Source of the DNA: Maricaulis maris MCS10
GTDB taxonomy: Bacteria > Pseudomonadota > Alphaproteobacteria > Caulobacterales > Maricaulaceae
Reading direction: 5' to 3'
Assembly (NCBI RefSeq): GCF_000014745.1
Contig: NC_008347.1
Span: forward strand, 868,001-932,000
DNA: 64,000 bases
The translations under genes and the position numbers were made by a program. A model generated the notes under the pieces. That model did no database searches. It had not been told where the DNA came from and worked only from the letters and a program-made list of their open reading frames with translations. Position 1 is the stretch's first letter; each line of letters begins with the position of its first letter. This document shows positions 17,899 through 51,456 of this stretch, piece after piece.

Positions 17899-19542
17899 CT
17901 ATTCAGCCGGTCCGGTGAGGGCGGCGGGCGCCAGCTCCGGTGCGGCAAGATCGTTGAGGCGCAGCGCGCTATGGTGCGCCTCCTTGAGTGTTTGTGGGCA
18001 ATCGCTGCGGAAATGACCACCCCGGCTTTCACGCCGTTTCAGCGCGCCCGTCACGATGAAGCGCGCCGCGATCAGCGCATCCGCCTCGCCATGCTCGCGC
18101 CGCATCGCATCGATCAGCGCCGCCAACTCGGACAATCCGGCCTCGCTACGCTCCACCCCGCAATGGCGCGACATGGCCTGGCGCAGGCGCAGGAGGGCGA
18201 GGGGAGGCAAGCTCGGTGCAACCCACTGACTATCCACCGTCATCCCCCGGCTTGTCCGGGGGACCTCAGCCATAGGGTTGACCATGATATTCGGGGTGCG
18301 GCTGTCCGGGCCCTTTTGTCGACCGTCCAGTCGAGGTCCCCCGGACAAGCCGGGGGATGACGGATGGTGTTCGTCCGGTGCCGCAAGCCGACGCGCAAAC
18401 CTGGCCGCACTCACCAGCCCCTCGGCCAGCGAATTGGACGCTAGGCGATTGGCGCCGTGCAAGCCTGTCGCGGCGCATTCGCCGATCGCGAACAGGCCGG
18501 GCACCGAGGTGCGGCCATCAATATCGGTTGCGACGCCGCCCATATGGTAATGCGCGGTCGGGGCAACCGGGATCGGCTCGATACGCGGATCGATGCCGGC
18601 GCGCTGGCAGGCGGCGAAGACCGCCGGGAAGCGCTCCGGGAAGGCCTCGCCCACCGCCTCGCGGCAATCGAGGAAAGCGCCTTTTCCTGACGCGTTCTGG
18701 CGATGTACGGCGCGGGCGACGACATCGCGCGGGGCCAGCTCGGCATCGTCGTGGATCGCTTTCATGAAACGATGGCCGGTCTGGTCGACCAGGATGGCCC
18801 CTTCACCGCGCAGGGCTTCGGTGCACAGGGGTGCCGGATCGAGGCCGGCATTGAGCGCGGTCGGATGGAATTGCACGAATTCCGGGTCACGGATCACCGC
18901 GCCCAGACGCGCTGCCATCGCCATGGCCTGGCCTTGCGCGATCGCCGGTGTGGTGGTCAGCGCGAACAGGCCGCCTGCGCCGCCCATGGCAAGCAGGGTG
19001 GCGCCAGCCTCGATGGATTGAATCTGGCCATCCGGGCCTTGCGCAATGGCACCGGTGCAGGCGGAGGAATCGCCGGTCAGCGCGACCGCCTTCCAGCCAT
19101 CACGGATCTCGATGTGAGCGGCGGCGCGTACCGCCTTGATCAGTGTCGCCATGATCGCCGCGCCGGCACCATCGCCCTTCACCCGGGCGACCCGGGGCCG
19201 CGAATGCGCCGCTTCGCGGGACAGCGACCAGTCCGCGCCCTCGCGCTCAAACGGCGCGCCGAGTGCCGCCAGTTCCGCCACTTCCGCCGCTGCGCCTTCG
19301 GAAAGGGCGAGCGCGGCCTCGCGATCAACCAGCCCAGCCCCTGCAGCAATCGTGTCCCGCGCATGCAGCTCAGCACTGTCATCCGCCGCCAGAGCCGCCG
19401 ACACCCCGCCCTGCGCCCAACCGGACGCGGCGCCGTCACCCAGCGGTGCGCCGGTGAGCAGAACCACAGGCCGCGGGGCGAGCTTGAGAGCCGCCCAGAG
19501 TCCGGCAATGCCAGCGCCACAGATGAGGGTGGGGTGGGTCAT
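17899..19542 (-). CDS. nadB: L-aspartate oxidase (NadB) carrying an in-frame repeat insertion
   Basis: NadB oxidises L-aspartate to iminoaspartate with FAD, feeding NadA. The 547-residue protein begins with the FAD motif ICGAGIAGLWAAL, has HYHMGGVATDIDGRT and GLHGANRLASNSLAEGL, and ends with the helical domain. Residues of about 394-436 are encoded by a 127-bp P-family palindromic repeat (18237-18363) lying between the flavin/capping core and the C-terminal helices. Removing it leaves about 504 residues, the usual size. The frame stays open through the repeat, so the protein is probably active with an extra Pro/Gly/Arg-rich linker. nadA ends 5 bases upstream. Confidence 0.93.
   Translation of the reverse strand: MTHPTLICGAGIAGLWAALKLAPRPVVLLTGAPLGDGAASGWAQGGVSAALAADDSAELHARDTIAAGAGLVDREAALALSEGAAAEVAELAALGAPFEREGADWSLSREAAHSRPRVARVKGDGAGAAIMATLIKAVRAAAHIEIRDGWKAVALTGDSSACTGAIAQGPDGQIQSIEAGATLLAMGGAGGLFALTTTPAIAQGQAMAMAARLGAVIRDPEFVQFHPTALNAGLDPAPLCTEALRGEGAILVDQTGHRFMKAIHDDAELAPRDVVARAVHRQNASGKGAFLDCREAVGEAFPERFPAVFAACQRAGIDPRIEPIPVAPTAHYHMGGVATDIDGRTSVPGLFAIGECAATGLHGANRLASNSLAEGLVSAARFARRLAAPDEHHPSSPGLSGGPRLDGRQKGPDSRTPNIMVNPMAEVPRTSRGMTVDSQWVAPSLPPLALLRLRQAMSRHCGVERSEAGLSELAALIDAMRREHGEADALIAARFIVTGALKRRESRGGHFRSDCPQTLKEAHHSALRLNDLAAPELAPAALTGPAE
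18237..18363. repeat. P-family palindromic element inserted inside nadB
   Basis: A 127-bp element with perfect 31-bp inverted ends (18237-18267 and 18333-18363, beginning CCGTCATCCCCCGG). It shares TCCGGGGGACCTCAGC, CCAGTCGAGGTCCCCCGG and GGGATGACGG with the P copies at 50783 and 51310, while its hairpin bases and loop differ. It is read through in frame by nadB. Its length is 3n+1, so two extra bases, perhaps a 2-bp target duplication, would be needed to keep frame. Confidence 0.9.
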
Positions 19543-24537: not shown

Positions 24538-24656
24538 TTGTCATCCCCGCTGGACGTCCGGCGCAGGCCGGACGCAAGGCGGGGACCAACATGTTGCTAC
24601 CAGCTAGGCCCCTGACTTGCGCCCGGCCTTCGCCGGGCGTCCATCAGGGGTGACAA
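24538..24656. repeat. Q-family double-hairpin repeat, copy 1
   Basis: The element is bounded by TTGTCATCCCC and GGGGTGACAA. The left half folds as GTCCGGC-GCAG-GCCGGAC inside a CCCCGC...GCGGGG stem, and the right half as GCCCGGCCTTCGCCGGGC inside CCCCTGA...TCAGGGG. The same plan is seen at 33185-33304 and 33367-33485, with half copies at 4085 and 60092. It lies in the 288-base gap between two convergent genes. The remainder, 24657-24760, shows nothing I can name. Confidence 0.8.
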
Positions 24657-33184: not shown

Positions 33185-33304
33185 TTGTCATCCCCGCTGA
33201 ATGTCCGGCGAAGGCCGGACGCAAGGCGGGGACCTAACTCTTTGCAACAACATGGGTCCCTGACTTTCGCCCGGCCTTCGCCGGGCGTCCATCAGGGATG
33301 ACAA
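33185..33304. repeat. Q-family double-hairpin repeat, copy 2
   Basis: Bounded by TTGTCATCCCC and GGGATGACAA. The left hairpin is GTCCGGCGAAGGCCGGAC and the right is GCCCGGCCTTCGCCGGGC. It is nearly identical to copy 3, which follows 62 bases later in the same direction. Confidence 0.85.
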
Positions 33305-33366: not shown

Positions 33367-33485
33367 TTGTCATCCCCGCTGAATGTCCGGCGAAGGCCGG
33401 ACGCAAGGCGGGGACCCAACTGCATGCAATCATATAGGTCCCTGACTTTCGCCCGGCCTTCGCCGGGCGTCCATCAGGGATGACG
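33367..33485. repeat. Q-family double-hairpin repeat, copy 3
   Basis: The same structure and orientation as copy 2, with differences mainly in the linker between the two hairpins. Together the two copies form a direct repeat pair upstream of the toxin-antitoxin genes. The right end reads GGGATGACGAA. Confidence 0.85.
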
Positions 33486-33559
33486 AACGTATTGCGGACA
33501 GCGCTTTGCGTCCCGTAGCGCGGCGGGTCACGGGGCTCCCTTCCGCACGCCCCATCAAA

Positions 33560-36185: not shown

Positions 36186-36232
36186 CCCGTCATCCCACGG
36201 TGACCGCGAAGCGGGTGTCCGGGGGATGACGG
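36186..36232. repeat. Short P-like palindrome
   Basis: A 47-bp version of the P ends: CCCGTCATCCCACGG on the left, CCGGGGGATGACGGG on the right, with a GACCGCGAAGCGGGTGTC middle. It lacks the GAGGTC/GACCTC core and loop of full copies. It sits after a run of six T residues that follows the exported protein gene. Confidence 0.6.
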
Positions 36233-50782: not shown

Positions 50783-50931
50783 CACCGTCATCCCACGGTC
50801 GCGGCGCGCCGCGATCCGGGGGACCTCAGCGCTGGGGGCGCCGGGTGAAACGGGGAAGCTCGTGCGCAAGGCCCACCGGCCAGTCGAGGTCCCCCGGATG
50901 ATCGCTGCGCGCTCACCGTGGGATGACGGTG
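50783..50931. repeat. P-family palindromic element, copy 2 (left of GIY-YIG gene)
   Basis: A 149-bp element with ends CACCGTCATCCCACGG and its complement CCGTGGGATGACGGTG, core pairs GGGGGACCTCAGC and CCAGTCGAGGTCCCCC, and a loop with GGTGAAACGGGGAAGCTCG. It is nearly identical, in the same direction, to 51310-51456. It ends 7 bases before the stop of the GIY-YIG gene. Confidence 0.9.
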
Positions 50932-50938
50932 GGGAGAG

Positions 50939-51268
50939 TTAGAGTTTGAGGCCAGGGTTGGGCGGTACGGCCCAGAGTTCGTCCCAGAGATCACGCCAGT
51001 GTGGATTGCGGTCCTCTATGAGATTGACCTTCCAGCGGCGCGGCCATTTCTTGATCCGCTTCTCGCGGCGGATGGCCTCGACGATAACGCCGTGCGGTTC
51101 CCACCAGACCAGGCTCGTGCATTTGTATTTGCGGGTGAAACCGGAAGCGCTCCCATCCTTGTGCTGCCGGACCCGCCAGAGGAGGTTGGCCGTCACACCG
51201 GTATAGAGCGGCCCATCATACCGGCTGGCCATCATGTAGACGGCAATCGTGCCTTCCCGGTCTTCCAT
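50939..51268 (-). CDS. Small GIY-YIG (URI) endonuclease
   Basis: A 109-residue protein of the COG2827-type GIY-YIG family. VYMMASRYDGPLYTGVT supplies the two strands (VYM and YTG), RVRQHK the catalytic arginine helix, and EAIRREKRIKKWPRRWK the helix with the metal-binding glutamate. No DNA-binding extension is present. The ATG at 51268 is used although no clear ribosome site precedes it; a TATAAAT stretch lies just upstream. It is flanked on both sides, in direct orientation, by almost identical P palindromes. Confidence 0.85.
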   Translation of the reverse strand: MEDREGTIAVYMMASRYDGPLYTGVTANLLWRVRQHKDGSASGFTRKYKCTSLVWWEPHGVIVEAIRREKRIKKWPRRWKVNLIEDRNPHWRDLWDELWAVPPNPGLKL

Positions 51269-51309
51269 GCAATTTATAGTAGTGCAAAACTTGTTCGCAC
51301 TCAATCGAT

Positions 51310-51456
51310 CGTCATCCCACGGTCGCGGCAAAGCCGTGATCCGGGGGACCTCAGCGCTGGGAGCGCCGGGTGAAACGGGGAAGCTCGTGCGCGCAAGGCC
51401 CACCGGCCAGTCGAGGTCCCCCGGATGCCCGCTGCGCGGTCACCGTGGGATGACGG
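51310..51456. repeat. P-family palindromic element, copy 3 (right of GIY-YIG gene)
   Basis: A 147-bp element matching copy 2 almost base for base, with differences mainly in the first hairpin (GGTCGCGGCAAAGCCGTGATCC here, more GC in copy 2) and a two-base GC change in the loop. It lies 42 bases upstream of the GIY-YIG start and ends 9 bases before the yaaA stop. Confidence 0.9.

Follow-up and report, generated by a model that had tools for sequence, protein, structure and literature searches.

What role does a small GIY-YIG nuclease gene play between two nearly identical palindromes in Maricaulis maris MCS10, and could its product be what spreads them? The gene lies in the window analysed here, a stretch of 64,000 nucleotides corresponding to positions 868001-932000 of the single-contig genome (3,368,780 bp). 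It occupies 50939-51268 on the minus strand (330 bp, encoding 109 amino acids plus the stop codon) and belongs to a subtype with a REKRIK-like motif. It is flanked by two REPIN-like palindromes on the plus strand: P1 at 50783-50931 (50786-50928 from tag to tag), in which two inverted REP-like hairpins carry CGTC outermost, and its direct copy P2 at 51310-51455 (tag to tag). P1 and P2 are 93% identical, have the same orientation and both contain CGTCATCC; each has the layout of a REPIN, i.e., two REPs inverted around a short spacer. With the PF01541 match described below, this bears out the first-pass annotation, which had placed a small GIY-YIG gene between two almost identical direct P elements. 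Its gap of 7 bp to P1 is correct, and its gap of 42 bp to P2 is recounted as 41 bp. The stems of both palindromes are interrupted, so neither passes the strict hairpin test (stem of 8-9 bp, loop of 4-5 nt and CCA tail). By eye, the short upstream region at 51269-51309 (minus strand) features an AT-rich motif, TATAAATTGCATG, over the start codon that is common to nucleases of several clades within the genus. An AT-rich, TGCAATTATAAATTGCATG-like palindrome is also observed at the start codon of Maricaulis nucleases of different clades (51266-51290 of the window, L071, L076, L080, L084, L088 and L089); it is a possible promoter or operator.

The window protein matches the PF01541 profile with 47.9 bits against a cut-off of 22.6, and its AlphaFold model, which covers 98 residues, has a mean pLDDT of 91.5. 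The nearest solved folds are those of the UPF0213 proteins BH0048 (1zg2) and EF2693 (1ywl), of Slx1 and of the GIY-YIG domain of UvrC, none of them with an E-value below 0.001. The UPF0213 proteins are the best solved relatives by both sequence and fold and are similar in length, but they are distant, with identities of 28% (1zg2) and 25% (1ywl). In an alignment of 22 rows, R25 and E62 are invariant and Y4, Y15 and N81 nearly so; we take these five to be the catalytic residues. Profile, fold and conserved residues all place the protein in the GIY-YIG superfamily. The dN/dS values of the gene against relatives are about 0.12, 0.12 and 0.18, a fourth comparison being saturated; therefore, selection maintains the protein, and the gene is under purifying selection. 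Its nearest named relative, among the best 80 of 393, is the nuclease of M. maris DSM 4734 (96% identity).

Related palindromes are found elsewhere in the window without the gene. The first-pass annotation had reported the same family inside nadB and, shortened, at 36186, and both copies are real. The former is a CGTC REPIN at 18238-18362 (plus strand) with two inverted hairpins (18238-18264 and 18336-18362) that passes the strict test for stem (8-9 bp), loop (4-5) and CCA tail; the minus-strand ORF at 17899-19542, read as nadB, remains open for 547 amino acids through it with the frame kept. This in-frame insertion resembles those of Rickettsia palindromic elements. The shortened P is a single hairpin at 36187-36226 or 36187-36230 (plus strand), depending on where its end is placed. 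REPINs of another family, which flanks a second nuclease at genome position 971613, are located at 24538-24656 (end placed by eye), at 33185-33304 and, 182 bp further on, at 33367-33486, all on the plus strand.

The genome of M. maris MCS10 matches PF01541 at eight places, which comprise six small proteins with the REKRIK-like motif, one protein read as UvrC and a 221-amino-acid frame that lacks the subtype motif. By eye, palindromes adjoin all six subtype nucleases, four of them on both sides as direct copies and two on one side, and a repeat score of the flanks agrees with this reading; beside UvrC and the 221-amino-acid frame, no palindromes are found in the stretches read. About five palindrome families, again by eye, flank these nucleases. 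Among this genome and 60 relatives, 50 of the 61 genomes have nuclease matches at E<=1e-8, with 0 to 8 per genome. The genus set, consisting of 40 stretches and the window, contains 44 genes at E<1e-15; with two genes at contig edges dropped, 42 genes from M. maris MCS10, the genus and two members of the order remain. Their left and right flanks have a common direct repeat with a score of at least 60 in 26 of 42 cases, compared with 2 of 647 control pairs taken from these stretches. A palindromy score of at least 30 is found for 20 of 88 flank sides near the genes vs. 4 of 401 far from them, and this simple score fails to pick up the family located at 2232878 in the genome; repeat sharing and tagged hairpins are therefore used as measures.

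The linkage extends to many genera. The scan of named genomes covers the best 80 of 393 relatives, and 81 genes. By title, most of these relatives are Alphaproteobacteria, with others from Lysobacter, Dyella, Massilia, Desulfobacterales, Zixibacteria and Chloroflexi; a large share of the whole set consists of metagenome bins, so that some taxon labels may be wrong. At 80 named loci, the 53,278 bp closest to the genes (up to 350 bp away) contain 114 hairpins with a CGTC or TGTC tag (2.14/kb). The next zone, from 350 to 1000 bp, has 12 in 100,069 bp, and the zone from 1 to 3 kb has 38 in 296,806 bp (0.128/kb). Repeats common to both flanks, direct or inverted, with a score of at least 50 are found for 49 of 80 nuclease genes (one of the 81 being dropped) and for 4 of 588 controls. 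When all 256 four-base tags are scanned near the 81 nucleases, GTCA, TGGA and CGTC lead; TGTC is enriched too, as are TGGA and TGGG, which are complements of the tail (TCCA in the case of TGGA). The tag GTAG shows no enrichment there (1 near, 4 near with a stricter test). Judged by tag, stem, loop and CCA tail, the flanking repeats are REPs of the CGTC consensus. A REP lies within 400 bp in 51 of the 81 genes, and in 51 of 81 the flanking REPs have the stem of 8-9 bp, the loop of 4-5 nt and the CCA tail. Where the closest REPs of those 51 genes lie within 60 bp, they are arranged as REP> gene <REP in 16 cases and in the reverse order in three; the tag of the upstream REP is outermost in 25 cases and innermost in four, while that of the downstream REP shows no clear preference (20 vs. 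15). The flanked unit that the first-pass annotation described takes the form REPIN-nuclease-REPIN in Maricaulis, and the commonest layout elsewhere is REP> gene <REP, in which the gene lies inside a single inverted REP pair. One such unit, in G072, has a tag-to-tag length of 355 bp and contains hardly anything besides the reading frame, and a gene-less REPIN of the same REP is found elsewhere in that genome.

Other genes seldom have such neighbours. With predicted genes of at least 100 amino acids as controls, 45 of 78 named nucleases, 24 of 29 from the class and 14 of 41 from the genus have a REP that passes the strict test no more than 150 bp away, the 29 class genomes being the best-scoring of 137 with M. 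maris MCS10 left out; the corresponding numbers for other genes are 9 of 147, 0 of 5 and 17 of 328. REPs on both sides are found for 29 named, 19 class and 5 genus nucleases and for 0 of 480 controls. Because the named Maricaulis records and the genus genomes overlap, distinct genes were recounted and phylum loci added, which gives a strict REP within 150 bp of 96 of 156 nucleases vs. 27 of 435 controls, REPs on both sides of 62 of 156 vs. 0 of 435, and the layout REP> gene <REP for 38 of the 156. The 60 of 156 distinct nuclease genes that have no strict REP within 150 bp count against the explanation proposed below, and the strict test undercounts because it misses interrupted stems such as those of the window's own P. 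Intergenic location alone is ruled out as the cause, as 41 of 73 intergenic regions beside a nuclease contain a REP vs. 14 of 162 elsewhere at the named loci. In the phylum, 17 of 23 genes from the first 22 loci returned have a REP within 150 bp, with densities of 2.69/kb near and 0.17/kb far; one phylum locus (L275) is the same gene as L104. A plasmid collection has 21 records that match the nuclease, and in four of the six examined strict CGTC REPs lie beside the gene. The gene of Neisseria gonorrhoeae (L301, 2114-3695) is inside an array of 16 dRS3-like CGTC hairpins, with its nearest pair arranged as <REP gene REP>, and those of Aeromonas caviae, Rhizobium sp. CIAT894 and Shinella sp. have the layout REP> gene <REP; the Neisseria and Aeromonas records are chromosome-sized. 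Beside the genes of Sinorhizobium meliloti and Rhizobium sp. K1/93, the strict test finds no REP, and CCTC-type hairpins are seen nearby by eye, in K1/93 on one side only. Phage records yield no nuclease match. The first-pass annotation had asked whether P copies flank other GIY-YIG genes; genes of this subtype do adjoin palindromes, both the six of M. maris MCS10 and others at the genus, named, class and phylum loci, and the association between the nuclease and CGTC REPs is well supported.

The partnership is also specific. Among 43 genes (41 from Maricaulis and two from the order), which give 854 non-syntenic pairs out of 903, nuclease identity and similarity of the flanking repeats are correlated (Spearman 0.489), and none of 2000 permutations reaches so high a value. 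Non-syntenic nucleases with an identity of at least 0.8 have common repeats in 18 of 18 pairs, and those below 0.5 in about 4%. Between different genomes, with identities rounded to two decimals, repeats are common in 15 of 16 pairs at or above 0.8 and in 16 of 472 below 0.5. Within the same genome, the numbers are 4 of 4 at or above 0.8, 2 of 3 at 0.6-0.8 and 1 of 36 below 0.6, so that relatedness of the hosts alone is insufficient to explain the pairing, and host confounding is weakened as an explanation. In M. maris MCS10, two nucleases that are 83% identical have one common repeat family (score 55); one unlike pair, only 45% identical, also has common repeats (score 53), which counts against the rule. 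Matched pairs of nuclease and REP are thus well supported, and the matching of enzyme and REP by co-evolution that defines REPtron/RAYT systems is found here as well. The first-pass annotation had proposed a partnership between P and the nuclease; the linkage stands, and P is only one of about five nuclease-flanking families by eye, so that the partners are better described as a nuclease subfamily and a CGTC-REP superfamily in matched pairs.

Empty sites, for which the first-pass annotation had called, are found at orthologous positions, together with solo-REPIN and REPIN-gene-REPIN states. The window site was read by eye in 14 of 19 genus genomes (all except G006, G007, G011, G013 and G015). 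M. maris MCS10 and G018 have P-gene-P there, and G014 has REP-gene-REPIN. In G016, where the left flank matches that of MCS10 up to the element, a solo P is found; G010 and G001 have partial or different repeats, and no CGTC REP is seen by eye in G002, G003, G004, G005, G008, G009, G012 and G017. The nuclease gene is also present at this site in G013. At the second site (genome position 971613; eight genomes), MCS10 and G010 have REPIN-gene-REPIN, G016 has a solo REPIN and G018 a collapsed half, and nothing is found in G015, G014, G012 and G001. At the third (978422), the unit is present in MCS10 and absent in G006 and G010, and a tblastn scan of the G018, G015 and G016 stretches returns one weak match of 18 amino acids, in G018. 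At the fourth, a P-type unit is present in G006, and MCS10, G018, G015 and G016 have other REPINs with no profile match there. Insertion polymorphism at orthologous sites is therefore well supported. The solo REPINs of G016, at two sites, are what the uninterrupted target of a homing endonuclease would look like, but deletion through recombination between direct REPINs predicts them too; the solo state fits both gain by insertion and loss by such recombination. In the stretches L071 (5682-6901) and L088 (6090-7123), a REPIN-gene-REPIN-gene-REPIN tandem is seen in G010, and a remnant resembling a gene end lies between REPINs of the same family in MCS10. Separately, an intergenic site beside yaaA is occupied in many Maricaulis genomes by conserved sequence that includes a short frame beginning with ATGTTTCGGTTTCCGAAA or something similar (L215, L216, L217-L220, L222, L224 and L225); this sequence is apparently missing there in MCS10.

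The first-pass annotation had also asked whether the numbers of palindromes and nucleases correlate, and REP-rich genomes are indeed enriched for the nuclease. Searched with the nuclease profile, 137 of 387 genomes of the class and 117 of 397 of the phylum have a match. At least 8 REPs are found in 65 of the 137 nuclease-positive and 17 of the 250 nuclease-negative class genomes (Fisher p ~3e-20), as counted with the covariance model R1, which represents a single REP type and was derived from nuclease-flanking REPs, with mostly 19 REP candidates scored per genome and with related genomes that are not independent. The 56 of the 137 nuclease-positive genomes in which R1 has no match and the 17 REP-rich nuclease-negative genomes count against the explanation proposed below. 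A covariation count on the REP alignment is unusable as evidence because the sequences had been selected as hairpins. For P itself, matching pieces (E<=1e-6, some palindromes being counted on both strands) number 17 in MCS10, 23 in G006 and 42 in G010, and 9 of the 19 genomes searched have any. G010 is a clear exception to the link between nuclease and P: its P copies lie in tandem arrays, yet its three nucleases are 91-93% identical to those of other types, and it has two Y1_Tnp matches. In L235, L237, L238, L239 (G010) and L242 (G018), P-like REPINs form tandem arrays whose units are longer, about 215 or 350 bp, and a tblastn search of the P-like tandem arrays of G010 and G018 finds no nuclease. 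The RAYT-type Y1_Tnp domain (PF01797) has no match in the genome of MCS10, and a RAYT is therefore rejected as the mobiliser there, whereas in G010, with its two matches, one may be at work; across the 61 genomes it is found in 12 at E<=0.001, vs. 50 with the nuclease at E<=1e-8. The gene linked to REPs is thus not a Y1 HUH transposase gene but one of PF01541.

The most economical reading would be that the nuclease moves its own repeats. We propose, with a probability of roughly 0.6, that gene and palindromes form a two-part selfish element, in which a GIY-YIG nuclease of one domain is paired with a CGTC-tagged REP family of its own. As an autonomous element it would be arranged REP> nuclease <REP, or REPIN-nuclease-REPIN in Maricaulis, and the gene-less REPINs would be its non-autonomous copies. 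The nuclease may identify its REP family by hairpin and tag and cut there, perhaps when the hairpin is single-stranded or cruciform during replication; host repair would then place a copy of the REPIN, or of the complete unit, in the break or at a new position. As hydrolysis of DNA by GIY-YIG enzymes involves no covalent intermediate, strand transfer of the RAYT type, with its covalent DNA intermediate, is not expected of this enzyme, a point against the proposal. The suggestion of the first-pass annotation that the nuclease spreads the palindrome thus gains from linkage, pairing and polymorphism; the spread itself we infer, with G010 and the 17 of 250 nuclease-negative genomes as exceptions.

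The main rival holds that REPINs spread by other means and that the nuclease, a homing-type endonuclease with dispersed REPINs as its target, copies its gene into cut REPINs when these are repaired from a REPIN-gene-REPIN donor. The GIY-YIG fold is known from homing nucleases, the gene sits between REPs of its own family, and two sites have solo-REPIN and REPIN-gene-REPIN alleles; with GIY-YIG homing endonucleases, the system has in common the catalytic domain, a gene inside its candidate target and empty and full alleles. Such homing would leave unexplained the nuclease enrichment of REP-rich genomes and, as no Y1 transposase is found in MCS10, what else spreads REPINs there. The system also differs from those endonucleases in that no intron or intein was noticed, the protein has a single domain and the target would be a dispersed repeat family. 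We regard homing as unlikely, yet as a serious contender. A second rival would have the REPINs moved by another enzyme and carrying, or inserting beside, a nuclease with a different job such as repair or defence. REPIN-rich sites without a nuclease do exist, G010, with its many P copies and two Y1_Tnp matches, has no P-type nuclease, and three COG2827 genes of Caulobacter crescentus are discussed as possible repair genes in the available part of PMC1839093, where one of them (CC3518) is reported with an SOS box, a hint of damage-induced expression. Neither cargo nor a landing site would account for pairs that are matched even within one genome, or for REPs on both sides of so many nuclease genes and of none of the controls, and we consider this rival improbable. 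That the palindromes serve as terminators or mRNA stabilisers of the nuclease gene agrees with their place at the gene ends, but the same families occur elsewhere without the gene, are polymorphic in presence and are matched to nuclease type, which makes such a role hardly credible.

The proposed two-part element is best read as a REPIN/RAYT-like system with an unrelated enzyme, and the likeness to REP elements and RAYT transposases drawn by the first-pass annotation is apt. As far as the accessible descriptions of REPIN/RAYT systems (REPtrons, TnpA-REP; Bertels and Rainey 2011, Corneloup 2021) go, both have inverted REP pairs, a small enzyme gene flanked by its own REPs, matching of enzyme and REP, and dispersed gene-less copies; they differ in the enzyme, GIY-YIG (PF01541) here and HUH Y1 (PF01797) there, and in the tag, CGTC/TGTC here and GTAG there. 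The repeats themselves resemble the CGTC REPs described in the accessible text of Di Nocera et al. (2013, PMC3733652) in tag, stem (8-9 bp), loop (4-5 nt), CCA tail, paired units and occurrence mainly in Alphaproteobacteria. That text, which reports no associated transposase genes for them, includes Neisseria dRS3 and Rickettsia RPE-4 and RPE-6 among them and closes on their mobiliser as an open question; a linked nuclease gene is added here. In the parts available, GIY does not occur in PMC3733652 (endonuclease occurs once), neither GIY nor any word beginning with nuclease occurs in the RepRanger paper (PMC12306157), and the Bradyrhizobium small-ORF paper (PMC5082802) does not mention GIY. 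Among the literature matches listed, which are mostly at the level of title and abstract and lie outside bioRxiv and most subscription papers, none links GIY-YIG to REPs.

For a widespread class of bacterial repeats whose spreader is missing, the nuclease is a strong candidate for that role. We give somewhat better than even odds to the broader proposal that this GIY-YIG subfamily is the dedicated mobiliser of CGTC REPs, including the dRS3-like REPs of Neisseria and those of rhizobia, and would thus constitute a second, independently evolved mobility system for REPINs that works by hydrolytic cutting and host repair rather than by HUH transposition. A matched nuclease for each repeat family gives the question of the CGTC-REP mobiliser a named enzyme and a direct test. 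If the proposal is true, a nuclease unrelated to transposases would stand behind one of the two large REP superfamilies recognised in the available text of PMC3733652, the one that includes Neisseria dRS3 and two Rickettsia palindromic elements.
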